Assembly (NCBI GenBank): GCA_903885795.1
Contig: CAISJV010000088.1
Location: 1-64,000, forward strand
Reading direction: 5' to 3'
Source: an uncultured delta proteobacterium
GTDB taxonomy: Bacteria > Desulfobacterota > Syntrophia > Syntrophales > UBA8958
DNA length: 64,000 nt
The position numbers were made by a program, and so were the translations under genes. Under the pieces are notes generated by a model. The model was not told the origin of the DNA. It did no database searches and saw only the letters and a list, made by a program, of their open reading frames with translations. Each line of letters begins with the position of its first letter. The first letter of the stretch is position 1. Positions 20,138 through 31,759 of the stretch are shown in pieces.

Positions 20138-22252
20138 ATGAAAACACATTATCGAATCATACTTCTTCTGTTGGTTGCGGTGAGCTCTTTTCTGGCCGGG
20201 TCCTGGGTTACCCACTATGGGGGCAACCAAAAATCAACGGTGGAACGCAAGATTCTCCACTATGTGGATCCGATGAATCCCTCCTTTAAATCAGACAAGC
20301 CGGGCATTGCGCCCTGCGGCATGGCACTGGTTCCGGTCTATGCCGACCAAAGTATCTCAGCCGCAGACGGAAATGATCTCCGGGCGTCCATGCCGCCAGG
20401 CACGGTCCGTATATCCGCTGAAAAGCAACAATTGATCGGCGTCAAGGTGATGACCGTCGAAAAGGCCCCCTGGAGTCACACCCTGAGGGTACTTGGGCGG
20501 GTAACACCGGATGAGACGCGTGTTTACCGGATCAATGCCGCCGTCAACGGCTGGATCGATGCCGCCCTTCCCGTGACTACGGGCAGTCTCGTAAAAAAAA
20601 ATCAGTTGCTGGCCACTTTCTACTCGCTGGAATATCGTTCTTTATTGCAGTCTTATTTCAACATCATTGGTTCCAGCAAGTCAAATTCCCCCCTCAACAA
20701 GCCTGAAGAGCCAACAACTCGCTATAGCGCTGCCCAGCTTAAACAAATGAGAGACACGATACGGAACTTGGGGCAAGGTACTGAAAATGCTCAGGCCGAT
20801 TATTACAAAAAAAATCTCTTTAATTACGGAATGAGTGAATACCAGTTGGATGAAATGGAACGTACCCGAAAGATTCCCGAGGTCATGGAAATTCGCGCCC
20901 CGATTCCTGGTTTTATTCTTTCGCGGAATGTTTCTCCCGGCCTGCGGTTTGACAGGGGAGTGGAGTTCTTCAGGATTGCCGATCTTTCCCGCGTCTGGAT
21001 TATCACCGATGTCTTTGAAAACGAGGCTTCTTTTTTCAAACCAGGGCTGCGTGTCAAGATGGAATTGCCTTATCAGAAAAAGACCTTATCTGCCCGGATG
21101 AGCGCTGTGCTGCCCCAATTCGATCCCGCCACGCGCACTCTCAAGATCAGACTGGAGGCGGACAACCCCGGTTATGACATGCGTCCCGATATGTTCGTGA
21201 ATGTGGAAATACCTGTGAGTGGTCAGGCAGCCATCATCGTTCCCACAGAAGCGGTTGTCGATTCAGGGCTGAAAAAAACTGTGTTTGTTGATCGGGGGAA
21301 CGGTTATTTCGAACCGAGGCAAGTGGAAACAGGACGTTCGCTGGGAGACCGGGTCGAGATCGCCCGGGGACTCATGCCCGGTGAAAAGATCGTTATTTCG
21401 GGGAATTTCCTGATCGATTCCGAGGCGAAGATGCAGCAGGCAACCGCAGGGATCACCGGAAAGATCGGACGCGACCCGGTGTGCGGGATGAACATCGATG
21501 AGGACCGCGCCAGGTCGGAGGGCAACTACCTGGAATACAGGGGCCAGACTTACTTCTTCTGCGATCCCAAGGAACGGGAAGACTTTCGCAAGGAGCCGGA
21601 GCGTTATCTGAAATTGTCCCCGGGGCAGGGGGTCATGCCGCCCTCCAGGACAAAAGTAAAGGCTGTAGTTGATCACACATCACACGGCGCCATGGAAAGG
21701 ACGGCGACGGATGGCGTGGAAAACGGGTCTCTTCATAATCATAATGGCATGAAGACGGCCATGCCGAAGGATCCGGAGTCATCGTCCCTATCACCCGGGA
21801 TCGTACCCATGGAGGGAGAAAAAGCGCGCGTCCCGCTTCTTCCGGTGTCCCGCAATCCCGTCCAGATGATGCCTGGTCCTGCCGATGGCATGTCAGGTCC
21901 CGGGTTGCCAGGTCCTGCCTCCATGCCCTCACAAATGCCCGGGGGTGCATTTCCTCCGCCGGTCGGCGCCCCGGTCAAGATGTTGCCCGGTCAGGGAACC
22001 GGCATGGCCATGCCGGGGTCACCGGGCGCGGTCACCTTACCGGAGCCAAGAACCGAGGGACCGGGCCGTTCAACCAGTCGTCCACCGAGGAGAAGAGGAG
22101 TGGCGCCATTTGACGGTGCAGTCGAGCCCGGCGTTCAGGAAGGTCCCTCCGCACCGCTGCCAAAAACCAGCGGAACCATCTCTCCGGGAGCAGGTCCCGC
22201 CAGAACCGAGCAGCAGCTGAAGTCTACCGGCAGCGGTCAAAACCATGATTAA
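20138..22252 (+). CDS. heavy-metal efflux adaptor (CusB-like) with YHS domain and Pro/Gly tail
   Basis: A 704-residue periplasmic adaptor. An N-terminal membrane anchor (IILLLLVAVSSFLAGSW) precedes a degenerate heavy-metal-binding domain (YVDPMNPSFKSDKPGIAPCG, where the usual Cys-Pro-Met-His is Asp-Pro-Met-Asn), the adaptor barrel and hairpin (about 85-430), a YHS metal-binding domain (about 445-490, DPVCGMNIDEDRA...YFFCDPKEREDF) and a 200-residue tail rich in Pro, Gly and Met (GMSGPGLPGPASMPSQMPGG). Adaptors normally stop after the barrel. YHS and Met-rich regions bind copper or related soft metals. It overlaps the pump gene by 8 bases. Confidence 0.85.
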   Translation: MKTHYRIILLLLVAVSSFLAGSWVTHYGGNQKSTVERKILHYVDPMNPSFKSDKPGIAPCGMALVPVYADQSISAADGNDLRASMPPGTVRISAEKQQLIGVKVMTVEKAPWSHTLRVLGRVTPDETRVYRINAAVNGWIDAALPVTTGSLVKKNQLLATFYSLEYRSLLQSYFNIIGSSKSNSPLNKPEEPTTRYSAAQLKQMRDTIRNLGQGTENAQADYYKKNLFNYGMSEYQLDEMERTRKIPEVMEIRAPIPGFILSRNVSPGLRFDRGVEFFRIADLSRVWIITDVFENEASFFKPGLRVKMELPYQKKTLSARMSAVLPQFDPATRTLKIRLEADNPGYDMRPDMFVNVEIPVSGQAAIIVPTEAVVDSGLKKTVFVDRGNGYFEPRQVETGRSLGDRVEIARGLMPGEKIVISGNFLIDSEAKMQQATAGITGKIGRDPVCGMNIDEDRARSEGNYLEYRGQTYFFCDPKEREDFRKEPERYLKLSPGQGVMPPSRTKVKAVVDHTSHGAMERTATDGVENGSLHNHNGMKTAMPKDPESSSLSPGIVPMEGEKARVPLLPVSRNPVQMMPGPADGMSGPGLPGPASMPSQMPGGAFPPPVGAPVKMLPGQGTGMAMPGSPGAVTLPEPRTEGPGRSTSRPPRRRGVAPFDGAVEPGVQEGPSAPLPKTSGTISPGAGPARTEQQLKSTGSGQNHD

Positions 22253-25200
22253 CCGGATCATCGACTTTTCCGCCCATAACAAGCTGATTATTTTCCTGAT
22301 CGTTGCCGCCGCCTCCGTGATGGGGTGGTGGTCCATGAAGCACCTGCCTCTCGACGCCATTCCGGATCTGTCGGAAACCCAGGTGATTATCTACTCCCGC
22401 TGGGATCGCAGTCCCGATATCGTCGAGGACCAGGTTACCTACCCGATCGTTACGTCCATGCTGGGCGCACCGGGGGTCAGAACCGTGCGCGGCTTCTCCG
22501 ATTTTGGCTATTCCTTCGTCTATGTCATTTTTGAGGAAGGGACAGACATCTACTGGGCCCGGGCGCGGACCCAGGAATATCTGTCCGCAGTGCTGCAACG
22601 TCTTCCCCAGGGGGTTCAGACAGAATTGGGGCCCGATGCCACAGGACTTGGCTGGGTGTTCCAGTATGTCCTTGTGGATACCACTGGAAAACGTAGCCTG
22701 GCGGATCTCCGCTCCTATCAGGACTGGACCTTGCGTTACTACCTTAAGGCGGTTCCGGGGGTGGCCGAGGTGGCGCCCATTGGCGGTTTTCGCCAACAGT
22801 ACCAAGTCAATCTTGATCCCAACAAACTACAGTTCTACAATATTCCCGTAGGCCGGGTGGTGGAGGCGGTACGTGGCAACAATAACGATGCAGGCGGGCG
22901 CCTGATCGAGTTTGGCGGGACCGAGTACATGGTTCGTGGCCGGGGATATGCCCGGTCCATTCATGATTTCGGAAATATTTCCCTGTCCGTGAGTGAGAGC
23001 GGCTCACCGATCCGCATTCGGGATGTGGGCGAGGTTGTCCTCGGACCCGACTATCGGCGGGGGGTTGCCGACCTGAACGGGACCGGCGATGTCGTCTCCG
23101 GTATCGTTGTCATGCGCCAGGGGCAAAACGCCTTGGATGTGATCGAGCGAGTCAAGAAGAAGATCCGGGAGATCGAACCGGGACTTCCGCCCGGTGTCAA
23201 AATAGTTCCTGTTTACGACCGGTCGGACCTGATCAATCGCGCCATCGACAACCTGAAGTGGACCATTCTTGAGGTCATGATCACTGTTTCCCTGGTGGTG
23301 CTCCTGTTTCTCTGGCATATCCCGAGTGCTGTCATTCCTGTCATCACCATCCCGATTGCCATCCTTATTTCATTCATCCCGTTCCGGCTCATGGGTGTCA
23401 CCGCCAACATCATGTCCCTGGGGGGTATTGCCATCGCCATCGGCGCCATGGTCGATGCGGCCATCGTGGTCGTGGAGCAGACGCACAAGAAACTGGAACT
23501 ATGGGACAAGGAAGGTCGAAAGAGCGATTACCGGGATGTGATCATTGTGGCGGTCAAGGAGGTGGGAGGTACCAGTTTCTTCGCCCTCCTCATCATTGCC
23601 GTGTCGTTCCTTCCCGTTCTCACCTTGGAGGCGCAGGAAGGGCGTCTTTTCAAGCCGCTGGCCTACACCAAAACCCTTGCCATGATCGTTGCCGCCGTCC
23701 TGGCCATTACCCTTGACCCGGCCCTGAGGCTGCTCTTCACCCATGTTCGCAGTTTCAGCTTCCGCCCCCTCTGGATCTGCCGGGCGGTAAACGTTGTGGC
23801 GGGAAGGACTATCCATGCTGAGTCGCGCCACTTCATCAGCAGTTTTTTGATCCGCATCTACGAACCAGCCGTGGCGTGGTCGCTGCGCTGGAAGTGGTCG
23901 GTCATCGGCGCCGCCTTCATTCTGGTCCTGGTGACGGTCCCCGTTTTCCAGAAGCTTGGTTCCGAGTTCATGCCCCCCCTGGATGAAGGGGCGCTCTTCT
24001 ATATGCCCACCACCATGCCGGGTATCTCCGTTACGGAGGCACAGAAGCTGCTCCAGACCACCGACCGAATCATTAAAAGATTCCCGGAAGTCGACCAGGT
24101 CCTCGGGAAGGCCGGCCGTGCCGAGACATCGACTGACCCGGCGCCTTTCTCCATGCTGGAGACCCTGATCACTCTCAAGCCGAAAAGTGAGTGGCGAAAA
24201 GTGGGGACATGGTATTCTGCCTGGGCTCCGGACTGGCTCAAAGCGGTTTTCCGGCGTATAGCGCCCGATACGATATCCACGGCGGAGTTGGTCAGTCAGA
24301 TGAACGAGGCCCTGAGACTGCCAGGTCTATCCAACGCCTGGACCATGCCGATCAAGGGGCGCATCGACATGCTCACGACGGGCATTCGCACTCCTGTCGG
24401 TCTCAAGATTTCCGGCGCCAACCTGGTACAGATCGAGCAGATCGGCGGGCAGGTAGAGGCGATCCTGCGCCAGATGAAAGGGACCAGGAGTGTTTTCGCC
24501 GAGCGGACCGGCGGCGGATACTTCCTCGATATCGACTGGAACCGTGATGAACTGGCCCGCTATGGCCTCTCAATCGACCAGGCGCAGGAAGCGGTCCAGA
24601 ACGCCATCGGTGGGGAAAACATTGCCACCACCATTCAGGGACGGGAACGATATCCTGTAAATGTCCGCTACATGCGTGACTTCCGTAGTAATCCGGAGGC
24701 TGTCGCCCGTGTCCTTGTGCCGGTCGCCGGCGGGCAGAAACAGATTTCCCTGTCCCAGCTGGCCGAGGTGAGCGTGGCGAGCGGCCCAGCCATGATCCGT
24801 GACGAGGATGGCCTGTTAACGGGCTATGTCTATGTAGATATAGCCGGCCAGGATCCGGGAGGTTACATTGCAGAGGCGGACCGCCTACTCCGGACAAAAG
24901 TAGAATTGCCCGCAGGTTACGCTGTCACCTGGAGCGGCCAGTACGAGGCGATGCAGCGGGTCAGGGAACGCCTGGAGATCGTCGTGCCGCTGACCATCCT
25001 GCTGATTATCCTATTGCTTTATCTGAACACCCGATCCATGGTGAAAACGACCATTGTCCTTTTGGCCGTACCATTCTCGGCGGTAGGGGCCATCTGGTTC
25101 CTCCATTTTCTCGGCTACAACATGAGCATCGGTGTCTGGGTCGGACTCATCGCTCTTCTCGGCGTAGATGCGGGAATGGGGGTCTTTATGCTCCTCTATC

Positions 25201-25514
25201 TGGACCTGGCATATGCACAGGCCAGGCGGGAAAAACGTCTGACCACTCTTGCCGACCTGCGGACGGCCATCATTCAAGGGGCTGCCAAGCGCATCCGTCC
25301 CAAGTTCATGACCGTGGCCACCATGTTTCTCGGGCTCGTCCCCATTATGTGGGCCACGGGAACGGGCGCCGACGTCATGAAACATATTGCCGCACCGATG
25401 GTGGGAGGGATATTCAGCTCTTTTCTCATGGAACTGATGGTTTACCCGGCCATCTATGAGATCTGGAAATGGAACTTTGAGATGAAGAAACTGCCAATCC
25501 CCGTGGGGGAATGA
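22245..25514 (+). CDS. RND heavy-metal efflux pump (CusA/CzcA family)
   Basis: A 1089-residue inner-membrane pump. It shows the heavy-metal RND pattern: first helix ([18 protein letters not shown]), [43 protein letters not shown], the helix-4 proton-relay segment [19 protein letters not shown] with its Asp and Glu, and the C-terminal [17 protein letters not shown]. It exports metal ions using the proton gradient, with the adaptor before it; the outer-membrane CusC/TolC partner is not in the window. The adaptor's YHS and the NosL genes downstream make copper(I) the most likely substrate, though the sequence alone does not settle this. Confidence 0.9.
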   Translation: [1089 protein letters not shown]

Positions 25515-25649: not shown

Positions 25650-26207
25650 ATGCAAGCCAAGGAGAAGCGAAAAAGATTTTTGAGCTGCGGCGAAGCCATT
25701 TTTCAAAGGTCTCGATGTGCAGGGGCTTTATGGCCGACGATTGTTTTCCTGGCAGTTCTGGCAGCAGGGAGCGGTAATGCGGCAACTCTTCGTATTGGCG
25801 ACACCTTACCCTCGATTACCCTTCCCGGCTTGAACGGCGCAAATGTCAGGATTCCCGAAAGTCTCAAGGGAAAGGTCACGGTGCTTCATTTCTGGCAAAT
25901 CGGCTGCACCTCATGCCGATTGGAAATGCCTGCCATGGAGAACCTTTACAGTAGGTACCGGAGAAAGGGGTTGGAAATATTGGCGGTCAATATTGGTCAG
26001 CGAAAAGAAGTCGTGAAGTCCTTTGCCGCTGATTTAGGAGTTTCCTATCCGATCCTGATCGATACAGACGGGAAAAGCGCCTCTTTATACGGAGTGACGG
26101 ATATACCCAGGACTTATGTGATCGATCGCAACGGTATGGTCAGGTACAGAATTCTTGGCGGCGCCACGCCGGAAATCCTGAAAAGGCTGATCCTCAGTCT
26201 TCTTTAG
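25650..26207 (+). CDS. TlpA/ResA-like thioredoxin, exported
   Basis: A 185-residue protein with an N-terminal membrane or signal segment (ALWPTIVFLAVLAAGSGNAA) and an AhpC/TSA-thioredoxin domain (about 50-180). The active site is GCTSC (Cys86, Cys89) in VLHFWQIGCTSCRLEMPAM, with cis-Pro in TDIPRTYVID. Such proteins reduce disulphides in apocytochromes c or copper-site proteins outside the inner membrane. It opens a run of genes that includes two cytochromes c and two NosL proteins, which points to a role in keeping their cysteines reduced. Confidence 0.87.
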   Translation: MQAKEKRKRFLSCGEAIFQRSRCAGALWPTIVFLAVLAAGSGNAATLRIGDTLPSITLPGLNGANVRIPESLKGKVTVLHFWQIGCTSCRLEMPAMENLYSRYRRKGLEILAVNIGQRKEVVKSFAADLGVSYPILIDTDGKSASLYGVTDIPRTYVIDRNGMVRYRILGGATPEILKRLILSLL

Positions 26208-26247
26208 TATGAGTTGTTATGAATATATCAAAACAAGGAGGTTTAAG

Positions 26248-26562
26248 ATGAAAAAATTGTTCGTTACGTTTATTCTGATTCTGTTCACGATACCAGCGGT
26301 TAGCCTTGCCGACGGCGGGAGCGACTACAAGGCCAAATGCGCAGCCTGTCATGGGGCGAAAGCCAATTTACTTCCGAAAACGGCCAGATTATTGAAGGTT
26401 GACCCCAAGAAACTCGCCCTGAAGGCCAGTCAGATGAACAGAGAGGAGATGATTGCAATCACCGAAAAAGGCAAGGGCAAGATGCCCGGCTTTGAAAAAG
26501 AGATGACGAAAGACCAGATCACCTCGACCGTCGATTATATTATGGCTTTAAGAAAAAAGTAG
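26248..26562 (+). CDS. small class I cytochrome c
   Basis: A 104-residue exported protein: signal peptide (MKKLFVTFILILFTIPAVSLA), one haem-binding motif CAACH, and a distal Met in KGKMPGF that could be the sixth ligand. The last part (DQITSTVDYIMALRKK) is the usual C-terminal helix. It carries single electrons in the periplasm. AAGGAGG at about 26235-26241 fixes the ATG at 26248. The gene after it is a paralogue, so the pair arose by duplication. Confidence 0.9.
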   Translation: MKKLFVTFILILFTIPAVSLADGGSDYKAKCAACHGAKANLLPKTARLLKVDPKKLALKASQMNREEMIAITEKGKGKMPGFEKEMTKDQITSTVDYIMALRKK

Positions 26563-26619
26563 GGTGGAGATGAGGAACGTTTCCTTGTCCCACTTAACAT
26601 TTAAAAAAGGAGGCTTACG

Positions 26620-26943
26620 ATGAAAAAAATTTGGATTCCCCTAATTCTTGTCACATTCTTCATGCCGGTAATTGCATTTGCCGATGGCCGGGCCGACTAC
26701 CGCGCCAATTGTGCATCTTGCCACTCAGCTTACCCCAATGGCTATCCTGATTTTGAAAAGGCCAAGGCAATGAAGGTGAGTCAAAAGAAACTTGCCCTGA
26801 GCGCGAGCGAGATGAGCCGTGATGAGATGATTGCCATCACCGAAAAAGGCAAAGGTGCGATGCCGGGGTATAAGGATAAGCTGGCAAAGGATCAGATCAC
26901 GGGCATTGTGGATTATATTATCAGCGCTGTTAAAAAGAAGTAG
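26620..26943 (+). CDS. small class I cytochrome c, paralogue
   Basis: A 107-residue exported protein with signal peptide (IPLILVTFFMPVIAFA), haem motif CASCH, and distal Met in KGAMPGY. It shares the KKLALSASEMSRDEMIAITEKGKG block with the previous cytochrome, but the residues after the haem site differ (HSAYPNGYPDFEKAK). AAGGAGG at about 26608-26614 is its ribosome site. The two probably serve different partners or potentials. Confidence 0.9.
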   Translation: MKKIWIPLILVTFFMPVIAFADGRADYRANCASCHSAYPNGYPDFEKAKAMKVSQKKLALSASEMSRDEMIAITEKGKGAMPGYKDKLAKDQITGIVDYIISAVKKK

Positions 26944-27040
26944 GGTTTTGTGTGCCGATATTATGGTGGAGGTCCATGCCATTAGATGATGTGAATGCTG
27001 CAAAGGATATTATGAAGTAAGAATTTGGAGAAGGGAAGTT

Positions 27041-27562
27041 ATGAAAAAATCGATATCGTGTTGTGTTTTAATTGCAATATGCCTGTTCATGGGGAACGTT
27101 CTTTGGGCCATGGACAATGATGTGAAGGATATACCGGCTTGCAAGTATTGCGGGATGAACAGAGAGATGTTTGCCCACAGCCGGATGCTGACTGCATACG
27201 ACACCGGGTCGAAGGAAGGAACGTGCAGCCTCCACTGTGCCGCTATCGATATGGCCTTGAGTCTGGACAAGACCCCGACTTCGATCCAGGTCGGGGATTA
27301 CGTGACAAAAAAATTAATCGACGCGGAAAAGGCCACCTGGGTTATCGGCGGAAACAAGCCCGGAGTCATGACGAAAAATGCCAAGTGGGCCTTTGCCGAC
27401 AAGAGCGATGCGGAGAAATTCCAGCAGGCAAACGGCGGCCGCCTGGCCACATTCGACGAGGCCCTCCAGGCCTCCTATCAGGATCTCGGCAATGACATCA
27501 AGATGATCCGGGAGAAGCGGAAAATGAGGAATATGAAGATGAATATGGAGCATAAGCATTGA
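27041..27562 (+). CDS. NosL-like copper-binding protein 1
   Basis: A 173-residue exported protein: signal peptide (SCCVLIAICLFMGNVLWA), the NosL metal-site region (DIPACKYCGMNREMFAHSRM), and the rest of the fold (GSKEGTCSLHCAAIDMAL, WVIGGNKPGVMTKNAKWAFAD, GGRLATFDEAL). NosL is an outer-membrane lipoprotein that gives copper(I) to nitrous-oxide reductase; here the signal is not a clear lipobox and no nosZ is nearby. The tail is Met/Lys/His-rich (RKMRNMKMNMEHKH) and could bind copper. The extra CSLHC pair is unusual compared with classical NosL. Confidence 0.82.
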   Translation: MKKSISCCVLIAICLFMGNVLWAMDNDVKDIPACKYCGMNREMFAHSRMLTAYDTGSKEGTCSLHCAAIDMALSLDKTPTSIQVGDYVTKKLIDAEKATWVIGGNKPGVMTKNAKWAFADKSDAEKFQQANGGRLATFDEALQASYQDLGNDIKMIREKRKMRNMKMNMEHKH

Positions 27563-27564
27563 CC

Positions 27565-28077
27565 ATGGCAACAGGACCGCGATTGACGATATTCATGAAT
27601 GTTCAGGTTATTTGCCTCCTGAGCGTGTTTTTGCTGTCATCCTTTGCTGGAGCAGTTGAAGCAGTGGAAGAGGGGGCGCCGAAACCGGCGGCCCGGGACA
27701 AATGTCCCGTTTGCGGTATGTTCGTGGCGAAGTATCCCGACTGGACGATGCTCGTCCGGTTCAAGGATGGTTCCCATGTCTTCTTCGACGGAACAAAAGA
27801 CATGTTCAAGTACCTGTTTGATATGAAACGGTATGATCCGTCTAGGAAAGTGGAGGATGTCCAAGCCGTCCTGGTGAAGGACTACTACCGCCTTTCCTTC
27901 ATGGACGCCCGGAAGGCCTGGTACATTATCGGCAGCGATGTTTACGGACCCATGGGTAGAGAACTCATCCCCTTGGAAAAGGAGTCCGATGCCAAAGAGT
28001 TCATGAACGATCATAAGGGGAAGAAGATTCTCAAATATGCCGACATCACCAGGGAGGTCATCAAAACCCTTGATTAG
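27565..28077 (+). CDS. NosL-like copper-binding protein 2
   Basis: About 170 residues, with signal segment (VICLLSVFLLSSFAGAVEA), the NosL motif DKCPVCGMFVAKYPDWTMLV, a HVFFDGTKDMFKYL segment and MDARKAWYIIGSDVYGPMGRELIP. The CxxCGM pattern with a following Met is the metal-binding site. ATG 27565 is two bases after the stop of the first NosL gene. The two NosL proteins differ clearly in sequence, so they are not a recent copy; one may receive and one donate metal. Confidence 0.8.
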   Translation: MATGPRLTIFMNVQVICLLSVFLLSSFAGAVEAVEEGAPKPAARDKCPVCGMFVAKYPDWTMLVRFKDGSHVFFDGTKDMFKYLFDMKRYDPSRKVEDVQAVLVKDYYRLSFMDARKAWYIIGSDVYGPMGRELIPLEKESDAKEFMNDHKGKKILKYADITREVIKTLD

Positions 28078-28093
28078 CCACCGTTCCCGTAAA

Positions 28094-28426
28094 ATGACCG
28101 GTAAGGCTCGGTTGACCGTGAGGAAATCGAGCCTTTGTCTGGTCATCTTCGGCACTGCCTTACTGATGCTCGGCGCGATGTTCTTTCATGCCACATATCA
28201 ACGACAGGCCGATACCCCGCTGATTGGCCGTGTCGCCGGAGTGGTCAAGACCCTGGCATTGACTGATCTGTGCCTCTTCACGGAGGCGCGCTATACCCGC
28301 CATCCGTCTCAGGCCGACCTGTTCTCGGCTTTTCAGGATCACCCCATGGCACTGGAACATTTTCCCGCGGGTTCCATTGTTGGTCCTCCTGCAACATTAC
28401 GGAAGTTACATGACAAGCTGGATTGA
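28094..28426 (+). CDS. small membrane protein of NosL-ABC cluster
   Basis: About 110 residues: a basic N-terminus, one membrane helix (LCLVIFGTALLMLGAMFFHA), then a short outside domain (TLALTDLCLFTEARYTRHPSQADLFSAFQDHPMALEHFPAGSI). I do not recognise a family with a known role. The frame is open back to 28037, inside the preceding gene, but the ATG at 28094 gives a better membrane-protein start. It overlaps the permease gene by 17 bases and is surely part of the same operon. Confidence 0.65.
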   Translation: MTGKARLTVRKSSLCLVIFGTALLMLGAMFFHATYQRQADTPLIGRVAGVVKTLALTDLCLFTEARYTRHPSQADLFSAFQDHPMALEHFPAGSIVGPPATLRKLHDKLD

Positions 28427-29546
28427 AAAACAGCGCAGCATCCTCGATTATACCCTTTCCTCGCTCATAAGGAGGAAAGGAAAGAACATCAGCCTCTTTA
28501 TAGTCTATACTCTGGTCGTCTTCATCCTGGCCTCAGCCATGTTTTTCACGGAGGCCATGAAGCGGGAGGCATCCCTCATCCTGAAGGGCGCACCGGAAAT
28601 GGTTGTTCAGAGGCTCCTGATGGGCAGATACGACCCCATCCCCTTGGATTATCTACAAAAGATAAGAGGTATTCGGGGTGTTATCTCCGCTGATGCCAGG
28701 CTTTGGGGATACTACTACGACCCCGCAGTGGGGGCAAACTATACCGTCATGGCGCCCCGCAATCAGTCCATTGCCCAGGGAAAGATCATCATCGGCAAAG
28801 GTATTGCGAGGGTCAGGATGATCAACAAGGGGGACATCCTCTCTTTTCATGCTTATGACGGCCAGGTGCGAAGTTTCACTATTGACGGTGAACTACCGGC
28901 TGCATCGGAACTCGTATCGGCCGACCTAATCCTGATCACGGAGGCCGGCTTCCGGGACCTCTTCGGATTTCCTGCCTCCCATGCGACTGATATCGTTGTA
29001 TCGGTCAGAAATCCGCAAGAACTCCTCACGATTGCCAGGAAAATATCGGAACAACTCCCGGATACGCGGCCGATCATTAGGGACGAAATTGTCCGCACCT
29101 ACGATTCGGTTTTCGACTGGCGAGGCGGCATGGTGATCGTTCTGATCATGATGGCGCTGCTCGCTTTTGTCATCTTTGCCTGGGAGAAGGCATCGGGGCT
29201 TTCTGCAGAGGAGAAGCGGGAAATAGGCATCCTGAAAGCAATCGGCTGGGAGACGTCCGACGTCATTGCCGTCAAGACGTATGAAGGATCGGTCGTATCC
29301 TTCTTTTCCTTCGCATTCGGGATTCTGCTCGCCTACGGGCATGTTTTTTTCTCGTCCGCCTTTCTCTTTGCACCTGCCTTGAAGGGCTGGTCTGTCCTCT
29401 ATCCGGATTTCCGCATTACGCCTTTTATCGATCCCCACCAGGTGGGGATCCTCTTTTTTCTCACTGTCGTACCTTACACCGTCGCGACCATCGTCCCCTC
29501 CTGGAGGGCGGCGATCGTCGATCCCGACTCGGTCATGAGGTCCTGA
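28410..29546 (+). CDS. ABC transporter permease, FtsX/MacB-type
   Basis: A 378-residue permease with the MacB/LolC layout: one membrane helix near the N-terminus (LFIVYTLVVFILASAMFF), a large periplasmic domain (about 45-230) and three helices at the C-terminus (VIVLIMMALLAFVIFAWEK, FFSFAFGILLAYGHVFFSS, ILFFLTVVPYTVATIVPS). The EKREIGILKAIGWETSDVI motif is the coupling helix that contacts the ATPase. Type VII ABC systems of this kind transmit force to periplasmic partners and need not move small solutes. ATG 28410 is preceded by a weak GGAAG. Confidence 0.87.
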   Translation: MTSWIEKQRSILDYTLSSLIRRKGKNISLFIVYTLVVFILASAMFFTEAMKREASLILKGAPEMVVQRLLMGRYDPIPLDYLQKIRGIRGVISADARLWGYYYDPAVGANYTVMAPRNQSIAQGKIIIGKGIARVRMINKGDILSFHAYDGQVRSFTIDGELPAASELVSADLILITEAGFRDLFGFPASHATDIVVSVRNPQELLTIARKISEQLPDTRPIIRDEIVRTYDSVFDWRGGMVIVLIMMALLAFVIFAWEKASGLSAEEKREIGILKAIGWETSDVIAVKTYEGSVVSFFSFAFGILLAYGHVFFSSAFLFAPALKGWSVLYPDFRITPFIDPHQVGILFFLTVVPYTVATIVPSWRAAIVDPDSVMRS

Positions 29547-29548
29547 TC

Positions 29549-30277
29549 ATGATACGTTTACTGAACGTAAGAAAGGGATTCAATCTCGGCCGGACGAACG
29601 AATTTATTGCCGTGGGCGGCGTGGACCTTTCACTGGAAGGAAACAGGATTACCGTCCTGAAAGGTCCGAGCGGTTCTGGAAAGACAACGCTCCTCAGCCT
29701 CATCGGCTGCATGTCGCGGCCGACGTCGGGACGTATCTCCCTGCTGCGGAATCTGTTGGGAAACAACGGGTTTCTCAAAGATGGCGATACGCCGGAAGTC
29801 GAGGTAACGAGCCTGCCCGAACGGTTCCTTACGGAGATACGGCGTCAAACATTCGGGTTTATCTTTCAACAATTAAACCTAATCAAGGGCGTCACCGTTC
29901 TCGAAAACATCCTACTGCCGGCTTACCCCCTGGGGAAGAAGCATGGGGTTGTCAAAAAAAGGGCGGAAGAACTCCTGGATATGTTCGGCCTTGGCGATCG
30001 CGCTGCGGCGCGGGTGGAATGGCTTTCCGGGGGAGAGGCGCAGCGGGTGGCGATTGCCCGGGCCCTGATGAACGATCCCCCGATAATTATTGCCGATGAA
30101 CCGACGGCACATCTGGACAGCAAACTTTCCAGGGAGTTTATGGACATCATTGCCCACCTGAAAGGGCAGGGCAAGACGATCATCATCGCCAGTCACGACC
30201 CCCTTGTTTTCGAGGCGCCCGTCGTCGATCGGGTCATTGCCGTTCGCGACGGCATGATTGATGGAGCAGGGGCGTGA
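29549..30277 (+). CDS. ABC transporter ATPase, LolD/MacB-type
   Basis: A 242-residue ATPase with Walker A GPSGSGKTT (about 40-48), Q-loop IFQQLNLI, signature LSGGEAQRVAIARAL, Walker B IIIADEPT and H-loop ASHD. An insertion between Walker A and the Q-loop (LLGNNGFLKDGDTPEVEVTSLPERFL) is longer than in LolD. It powers the permease two bases upstream and overlaps the next gene by four bases (GTGA). Confidence 0.9.
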   Translation: MIRLLNVRKGFNLGRTNEFIAVGGVDLSLEGNRITVLKGPSGSGKTTLLSLIGCMSRPTSGRISLLRNLLGNNGFLKDGDTPEVEVTSLPERFLTEIRRQTFGFIFQQLNLIKGVTVLENILLPAYPLGKKHGVVKKRAEELLDMFGLGDRAAARVEWLSGGEAQRVAIARALMNDPPIIIADEPTAHLDSKLSREFMDIIAHLKGQGKTIIIASHDPLVFEAPVVDRVIAVRDGMIDGAGA

Positions 30278-31275
30278 TCCTCCATCCGGCCATTGTCGCC
30301 CTCGTCCTCGTCTCGTTTCTCATTGGTGGCATGATGATCTACAGCGCTTTTTTCGGCGTCCGGATCATTGGCCGATGGGACATAAAAAGTGGCAGTGAGG
30401 AGCAGCTCGCCCTGGAGAGAAAGACCTACCTGATTTCGACGATCCTTTCCTACGTCTTCGTCTTCCAGATCGGATCTCTTTTTCTTTACGTCTACACGGC
30501 AGACAGCCTGCACAATCTCTTTGTCGGGGCCATGTGCGCCGCCGGCTCTTTGTATGTTGATCCCTATGGTTATCCAACCTTTATCCTGAAGATACTCAAT
30601 TGCATCCTGGCCGGATTGTGGTTGATCGTGAACTACGTGGACAACCGGGCCTATGACTACCCCCTCATCAGAAAGAAGTATGTCATGCTCCTTATCCTGA
30701 CGCCGTTTTTCATCACTGAAGGGATTTCACAATGGCTTTACTTCGCCCAGATGAGAGCGGATGTGATCACGTCCTGCTGCGGAAGTCTGTTTAGTTCCGA
30801 GCGAAGCGGCGTCGGCTCGGAGATCGCGGGCCTGCCAGTGAAAGCGGCCATGGCTGGTTTTTATTTGAGCCTGGTGTTGACCTTCGCGACGGGTCTTGTT
30901 TTTCTTATCAAGGAGAAGTGGGGACGTCTTTTCTCATTTGCCAGCGGCCTTCTTTTTCTTATGTCCTGTGTTGCCCTTGTCTCGTTCATTTCTTTATATT
31001 TCTATGAACTCCCGACCCACCACTGCCCCTTTTGCGTGCTCCAGAGGGAATACGGTTATATCGGCTATCTGCTCTACGCCGCCCTCCTCACGGGCGCCGT
31101 ATCGGGGCTCGGCGTTGGTGTTCTGGTGACTATCAGGGGAGGGGCGAGTTTGTCCGGCACCTTGCCCCTTGTCCAGAGGAGGCTTGCCATGATCTGCTTT
31201 CTTGCCTATGCTATGTTCGCAGGGATATCGATTTACCGAATGGTCAGCACTGATTTCACGCTGGGGCTATTCTGA
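30274..31275 (+). CDS. polytopic membrane protein with CPFC motif (DsbB/VKOR-like in places)
   Basis: A 333-residue protein with about eight membrane helices. It carries HHCPFCVLQREY near residue 250, a motif shared with DsbB and vitamin-K-epoxide-reductase-type quinone-linked thiol oxidoreductases, and a second Cys pair in VITSCCGSLF. I do not recognise the family as a whole. Start is GTG 30274, coupled to the ATPase. As the last membrane gene of the NosL-ABC operon it could exchange electrons between the quinone pool and the thiols or copper of the NosL and thioredoxin partners. That role is inferred from the CPFC motif and position. Confidence 0.7.
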   Translation: MILHPAIVALVLVSFLIGGMMIYSAFFGVRIIGRWDIKSGSEEQLALERKTYLISTILSYVFVFQIGSLFLYVYTADSLHNLFVGAMCAAGSLYVDPYGYPTFILKILNCILAGLWLIVNYVDNRAYDYPLIRKKYVMLLILTPFFITEGISQWLYFAQMRADVITSCCGSLFSSERSGVGSEIAGLPVKAAMAGFYLSLVLTFATGLVFLIKEKWGRLFSFASGLLFLMSCVALVSFISLYFYELPTHHCPFCVLQREYGYIGYLLYAALLTGAVSGLGVGVLVTIRGGASLSGTLPLVQRRLAMICFLAYAMFAGISIYRMVSTDFTLGLF

Positions 31276-31399
31276 TCAACGATGTTTCTCTCCTTGACAG
31301 CAGACGGAAAGTCGGATGAAAACTGTTCTGTTCAGAAAGCCGCGAAAAAGGGTTAACCCATGTAATGAGCCCGTCCACTTGTCTTGAAAGGAGTCTGTG

Positions 31400-31759
31400 A
31401 TGAAAATACGTGTTTATTTATTGTCCTTGATTTTTCTTTTCGTCTCATTATCTGTTGGTCATGCTCAGGAGTTTGGCAAGATCCGCGCCCTGCAGCAGAG
31501 GGCAGCACACGTCATCAAACAAAAGAATGATTTCATTGCGAAAGTATTGACTTCATATGCGATCCCTTATGAGCGCAATGCTCAGGATGTCGTTGTGCGC
31601 ATCAATATGAACGGCCAATGGCAGGATGTTACATCTATCGAAATTGTGCCTGTCCTTGTAGAAATGTCGGAGAAGCATCAAAAAGTGGCAGCTCATGAAA
31701 TATTCTTTTTCACTGCTAACGGGATACTGGATTTGTTTTCGGATCTGGCGATAAAGTGA
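31400..31759 (+). CDS. small exported protein of unknown function
   Basis: A 119-residue protein with a clear signal peptide (VYLLSLIFLFVSLSVGHA) and a mature part rich in Lys, Gln and Val (IRALQQRAAHVIKQKNDFIAKVL...VVRINMNGQWQDVTSIEIVPVLVE). No family is recognised. AAAGGAG at 31387-31393 favours ATG 31400 over the GTG at 31397. It lies about 120 bases after the operon and has a TTGACA at 31294-31299 that may start its own transcript. It converges with purQ. Confidence 0.7.
   Translation: MKIRVYLLSLIFLFVSLSVGHAQEFGKIRALQQRAAHVIKQKNDFIAKVLTSYAIPYERNAQDVVVRINMNGQWQDVTSIEIVPVLVEMSEKHQKVAAHEIFFFTANGILDLFSDLAIK

Follow-up and report, generated by a model that had tools for sequence, protein, structure and literature searches.

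The locus analysed here raises the question of what nine packed genes at positions 25,650–31,275 of the window (the whole 64,000-nt stretch of DNA that was analysed) do together. The preliminary description, made from the letters alone, treated all nine as one candidate for an undescribed copper/thiol redox system. Our analysis places a conserved block of NosL, a small protein, an ABC permease, its ATPase and a membrane protein here called CPFC at the centre of the locus. We propose, with a probability of about one in two, that this block is a Type VII ABC system, so far undescribed, that handles periplasmic Cu(I) and in the window feeds a copper efflux pump. The probable task of the cassette is to move copper within the cell envelope or to expel it; ATP-driven handover of Cu(I), together with any thiol or quinone chemistry, would be further steps that we infer.

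All nine ORFs were confirmed on the plus strand, and the overlaps reported for the second half were found between the small protein and permease genes (17 bp) and between the ATPase and CPFC genes (4 bp), which suggests translational coupling in that half. A promoter and terminator scan gave signals too near the shuffled background to place the operon ends. The run opens with a TlpA/ResA-like periplasmic thioredoxin with a CTSC motif (25,650–26,207; AhpC-TSA, PF00578, E 6e-26) and two monohaem cytochromes c with the motifs CAACH (26,242–26,562) and CASCH (26,620–26,943), both matching Cytochrome_CBB3 (PF13442; E 2e-12 and 6e-13). NosL-1 (27,041–27,562; CKYCGM) and NosL-2 (27,559–28,077; CPVCGM ... 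GPMG) follow; both are secreted and lack a lipobox, and their scores of 53 and 112 bits exceed the PF05573 cutoff of 24 bits. NosL-2 probably starts at the ATG at 27,565 or 27,595. A small bitopic protein with one TM helix was recognized by alignment of its homologues (28,094–28,426); it starts at 28,094 or at a GTG at 28,118, and the homologues open with MRKS. The permease, which has a periplasmic domain (28,410–29,546; FtsX, PF02687, E 5e-7), most likely starts at the ATG at 28,410 rather than at the TTG at 28,377. An ABC ATPase of the FtsE/LolD/MacB class (29,549–30,277; ABC_tran, PF00005, E 4e-28; FtsE, MacB and LolD matches in NCBIfam) and CPFC (30,274–31,275) complete the run. The Pfam matches agree with the thioredoxin, cytochromes, NosL proteins and ABC genes named in the preliminary description; the families it listed are real, but its title did not name the small-protein gene, which is highly conserved. 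The same strand encodes, 3′ of CPFC, a small secreted protein (120 aa; 31,397–31,759) that has no Pfam match and is also present in the congener locus L010.

Relatives of CPFC were scanned for in one genome per species, which gave 543 stretches; 80 loci were kept, and their order and content were scored by profile searches. Gene order was nearly constant: NosL (one or two genes), small protein, permease, ATPase, CPFC. The ATPase was present in 71 of the 71 loci whose upstream sequence reached 2.5 kb or more, and the permease and small protein in 69 of them, while NosL was found in 44 of the 50 loci with 6 kb on both sides. The recurrence of the block is far beyond chance, and it was found at nearly all testable loci. 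Hosts belong to Thermodesulfobacteriota, Nitrospirota, Myxococcota and Methylococcales and include a Marinimicrobia bin and a Methylomirabilis bin; the block spans at least five phyla at ~50% identity, the phylum labels being those of the submitters because most hosts are metagenome bins. Cultured members with the block are Geomonas, Oryzomonas, Desulforhabdus and Methylobacter. Only two of the eight genomes of the window's genus carry it, so it is an accessory trait there; CPFC had no match in plasmid records.

The other genes of the run were far less constant. TlpA lay near 13 of the 50 loci and DsbD near 8, so TlpA is an optional partner, and the two cytochromes c were seen only in the window and in L010, that is, in this genus. 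The proposal that nine genes form one system therefore holds for the part from NosL to CPFC and does not extend to the cytochromes and thioredoxin. Electron balance through these proteins, which had also been suggested, cannot be the core mechanism, because the cytochromes are not conserved and TlpA is optional.

Several variants of the block were observed. In Methylococcales, NosL lies 3′ of CPFC instead of leading. Four loci (L028, L047, L064 and L065) have the permease, ATPase and CPFC with no NosL match within 9 kb; their chaperone may be encoded elsewhere. The block is divided between two places in genomes G079 (L143/L144) and G216 (L141/L142), and in G216 the permease stands apart from the ATPase-CPFC pair. 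A distant version at L129 (G080), with an FtsX permease, an ATPase, a 712-aa frame weakly matching CPFC and NosL-like genes, may represent the system in a different form.

Neither the small protein nor CPFC has a match in Pfam or NCBIfam, and each is treated as a new family. In the small protein, the periplasmic motif TDLCLFTEARYTRHxSxADL..FQDHP..LEHFPSGS is conserved. It was found in 49 genomes of a phylum sample of 395, of which 47 also encode CPFC; the two hits without CPFC were both at contig ends. At L148, NosL, the small protein, the permease and the ATPase run up to the contig edge.

The CxxCGM motif is present in 125 of 129 NosL matches; of these 125, all but one (124) keep a distal Met. 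Lipobox-like sites are rare (8/125), so most NosL are apparently soluble periplasmic proteins. NosL-2 also matches solved NosL structures (PDB 7og7, E 1.7e-9). The two window proteins, the only NosL genes in their genome, have the domain, the CxxCGM motif and the distal Met of NosL copper chaperones and are predicted from these features to bind Cu(I). In the Methylococcales loci L030, L044, L072, L083 and L085, a protein encoded downstream of CPFC has a NosL domain at its N terminus and, after it, a region that matches PF13557, a family of outer-membrane barrels (E 1e-4).

The permease is of the FtsX type, with four TM helices and the periplasmic domain between the first two. Its model (pLDDT 84) matched LolE (9rlc, E 1.2e-15) and MacB (5gko, E 4.7e-13), and the matches to LolE, LolC and MacB together ranged from E 1e-15 to 1e-12; the permease is therefore assigned to the Type VII transporters. 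This predicted fold agrees with the mechanotransmission type named earlier. The term "MacB-like pair" is apt for a fold near LolE and MacB, but permease and ATPase are encoded here by separate genes. In E. coli, Type VII ABC systems are known to sort lipoproteins, drive efflux, control wall hydrolysis and extract lipids; no description of a member that moves or expels copper was found in the literature searched. Members of this class use ATP for work on the periplasmic side, their function being set by partner proteins (PMC12646458). By analogy with other Type VII systems, the block permease would act mechanically from the periplasmic side without carrying substrate across the membrane.

LolE and MacB being the best permease matches, the block might be a Lol-like or MacAB-like transporter that extracts lipoproteins or small molecules bound to the membrane, NosL being a mere neighbour. 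The constant partners are instead NosL, the small protein and CPFC, no MacA-type adaptor recurs, and NosL is seldom a lipoprotein. We consider this very improbable, and lipoprotein sorting was set aside on the few lipoboxes among NosL proteins.

For CPFC, the AlphaFold2 model was confident (pLDDT 90.5, pTM 0.90) and bore out the eight helices reported for this protein, all of them long. In an alignment of 58 members, with residues counted over ~108 homologues, C88 (in GAMC), C168-C169, C251 and P247 were invariant, and H249, H250 and C254 nearly so, C254 being replaced by Asp in 6 of 108. The conserved Cys lie in the model on the loops after helices 2, 4 and 6. Loops rich in R and K lie at 35–41, 126–131, 214–216 and 286–295, and from this charge distribution the five conserved Cys with H249 and H250 are predicted to face the periplasm. 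No match to CPFC was found in Pfam, NCBIfam or, by sequence, the PDB, and Foldseek gave none at E 0.001 or better; its best were a GPCR (E 0.038) and haem A synthase (6a2j, E 0.26). The VIA-align rows were generic helical bundles, with no DsbB or VKOR chain among the matches listed. None of these matches is taken as a sign of kinship. An internal duplication of the two four-helix halves was rejected (hhalign probability 0.7%).

These residues bear on a second reading, in which CPFC is a quinone-linked oxidoreductase like DsbB or VKOR, TlpA and DsbD are its partners, and copper is incidental or acts as a thiol-damaging stress, as in Scs. VKOR has two cysteine loops flanking two helices, and the CPFC loops around helices 5–6 are arranged alike: near-invariant Cys pairs stand in two predicted periplasmic loops, two helices apart. 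The HCPFC motif and the TlpA and DsbD genes near some loci would also fit, and ScsC links redox foldases to copper resistance and offers a thiol-redox precedent in copper tolerance (PMC8900818, PMC5524982). However, none of the 58 members matched a DsbB or VKOR Pfam family at E 0.1, thioredoxin partners are missing at most loci, where NosL and CusBA are the commoner ones, and the change of C254 to Asp is hard to fit with an obligatory CxxC. The earlier label "DsbB-like" goes back to the Pro-Phe CxxC and the cysteine layout and found no counterpart in the Pfam, PDB-sequence or Foldseek searches; nor did any result of this analysis support the suggested link of CPFC to the quinone pool. We regard a thiol/disulfide system as improbable. 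The cysteine cluster could equally well be a Cu(I) site as a VKOR-like arrangement.

The copper theme of the block is well supported. Directly upstream of the run, the window encodes a CusB-like periplasmic adaptor (20,138–22,252, plus strand; PF16576, PF19335, PF04945), which carries the metal-binding domains HMBD and YHS, and a CusA-type RND pump (22,245–25,514, plus strand). The adaptor ends in a tail of ~180 residues in which Met, Pro and His abound, and this make-up seems unusual for CusB. The best PDB match of the pump was CusA; it scored 977 bits to CusA vs 490 to ZneA/CzcA-like proteins, and in the alignment its Met587, Met637 and Met709 stand opposite Met573, Met623 and Met672, the triad of E. 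coli CusA. By sequence, the pump is CusBA of the Cu/Ag class, which agrees with both the metal theme once read from this pump and the copper-related role of the locus.

Besides the window, CusA was found near the block at 26 of the 80 scanned loci, in layouts that were same-strand upstream, same-strand downstream, divergent and convergent. Scoring of 60 loci gave 27 with CusBA and 33 without, with 11 state changes on a quick CPFC tree that has many weak forks. At L147 the order is permease-ATPase-CPFC-CusB-CusA, and in G079, where the ABC part lies elsewhere, CPFC stands 2 bp before CusB-CusA. CusA adjoins CPFC in 8 of 20 genomes, which were chosen mostly for completeness and have ~2.5 CusA copies per 4 Mb genome; the chance estimate is ~0.2, kinship being ignored. 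In Methylococcales, the loci have instead of CusBA a heavy-metal P-type ATPase, a DsbD_2-cupredoxin protein, the NosL-barrel protein, TlpA and DsbD. Multicopper oxidases or SCO1 stand near other loci.

A search for a co-occurring oxidoreductase, proposed in the preliminary description, was run over the block loci; no single one travels with the block across the flanks, and CusBA does so instead in about one third. A Pfam scan of 100 flanking genes found no family common to more than 7, and most were regulators. An octahaem (MccA/SirA-like) partner was rejected, as multihaem ORFs were near only a few loci. The multihaem ORF at L081 has the atypical spacing but only 7 motifs, and it matches cytochrome c7.

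The remaining alternative is that the block matures cuproenzymes as a Type VII counterpart of NosDFYL, loading Cu(I) carried by NosL into haem-copper oxidases, nitrous-oxide reductase, multicopper oxidases or others. Methanotrophs, which are among the hosts, need copper. In the phylum sample, COX1 was commoner among the 62 genomes with CPFC (37/62) than among the 333 others (88/333; odds 4.1, Fisher p 9e-7, uncorrected for kinship), whereas NosZ was found in 2/62 vs 3/333 (p 0.18). SCO1 homologues lie near several loci, and the block is in the nosZ neighbourhood in G108 and G283 (L120 and L121), so that a maturation role is possible elsewhere; in Shewanella, NosL and NosY are listed beside SirA (PMC5955497). 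Against this, the flanks share no oxidoreductase, and both nosZ-side blocks are accompanied by another ATPase and another NosL; two ABC ATPases and more than one NosL can thus occur together in a nos locus. Moreover, 23 of the 62 genomes have neither COX1 nor NosZ; 12 of these have a Cu-oxidase_2 match, and 11, the window genome included, have none. We think cuproenzyme maturation rather unlikely, though the most probable of the alternatives.

In the window genome, which belongs to an anaerobe and is rated 100% complete, no COX1, NosZ, Cu-oxidase_2 or SCO1 was found. This agrees with the earlier view that the locus is no standard maturation operon for nitrous-oxide reductase or an oxidase, and, given two NosZ genomes among 62, the block does not always adjoin nosZ or another copper enzyme. 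The genome could hold a copper enzyme of another family, e.g. an octahaem MccA/SirA. Because those four families were not found and its only two NosL genes are both in this locus, copper export or tolerance is the likelier role in the window organism; elsewhere, copper supply by the block is possible. The lack of CusBA near 33 of 60 loci speaks against a general export role, and the COX1 enrichment and the loci by SCO1 or nosZ point to cuproenzyme supply.

We return to the Type VII copper system as the preferred reading. The permease, ATPase, small protein and CPFC would form a complex on which NosL docks, bringing Cu(I) to it or taking Cu(I) from it. ATP hydrolysis would power Cu(I) transfer between NosL and the Cys/His cluster of CPFC, and the metal would then pass to CusB/CusA for export. 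The CPFC Cys may be Cu(I) ligands or a thiol/disulfide pair that keeps the metal or its ligands reduced, with TlpA, where present, as thiol partner. The net effect in the window organism would be copper tolerance; other hosts may supply cuproenzymes with the same block. That Type VII force strips or hands over Cu(I) between NosL and CPFC and then to the RND pump, an ATP-powered metallochaperone exchange in copper export, is put forward as a tentative possibility. If true, the Type VII ABC class would gain a metal-handling member, and NosL would be tied to copper tolerance beyond N2O reductase, in hosts that include both anaerobes seemingly without a copper enzyme and copper-living methanotrophs.

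No description of the block was found in a literature search that left out most subscription journals; as far as searched, a block that combines a Type VII ABC permease, new partners and a copper context is undescribed, as had been supposed. To our knowledge, Scs has neither an ABC transporter nor NosL. It resembles the block in having periplasmic thiol-redox proteins, one of them TlpA-like, in a copper setting; in the block the thiol parts are optional. CPFC is, like DsbB and VKOR, a multi-helix membrane protein with a CxxC and a second cysteine pair on predicted periplasmic loops, but it has eight helices, an adjacent CC pair, an extra C88 and HH, and the sequence and fold searches described above gave no match to them. 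With CusCFBA the locus shares CusBA next to the block and a periplasmic chaperone that could feed the pump; the locus adds to this the ABC block, NosL and CPFC, and neither CusC nor CusF is encoded next to the block in the window.

NosL together with an ABC pair has a precedent in NosDFYL, which delivers copper to nitrous-oxide reductase (reviewed in PMC7558416). In both, NosL is encoded with an ABC ATPase and permease and action is on the periplasmic side. The block differs in its Type VII permease (FtsX/LolCE fold) and two new membrane proteins; no NosD was found at the window locus, nosZ is usually absent, and where it occurs the block is extra to another ATPase and NosL. The Type VII systems LolCDE-LolA, MacAB-TolC, FtsEX-EnvC, YbbAP-TesA and BceAB-BceS share with it the permease fold, an ATPase of the FtsE/LolD class and a partner-defined function. 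Unlike MacAB-TolC, the block has no MacA adaptor with its permease, the only adaptor at the window locus being CusB beside CusA. Its partners set it apart from all these systems: besides NosL they are a one-helix protein and an eight-helix cysteine protein, both new, and the context is one of copper.
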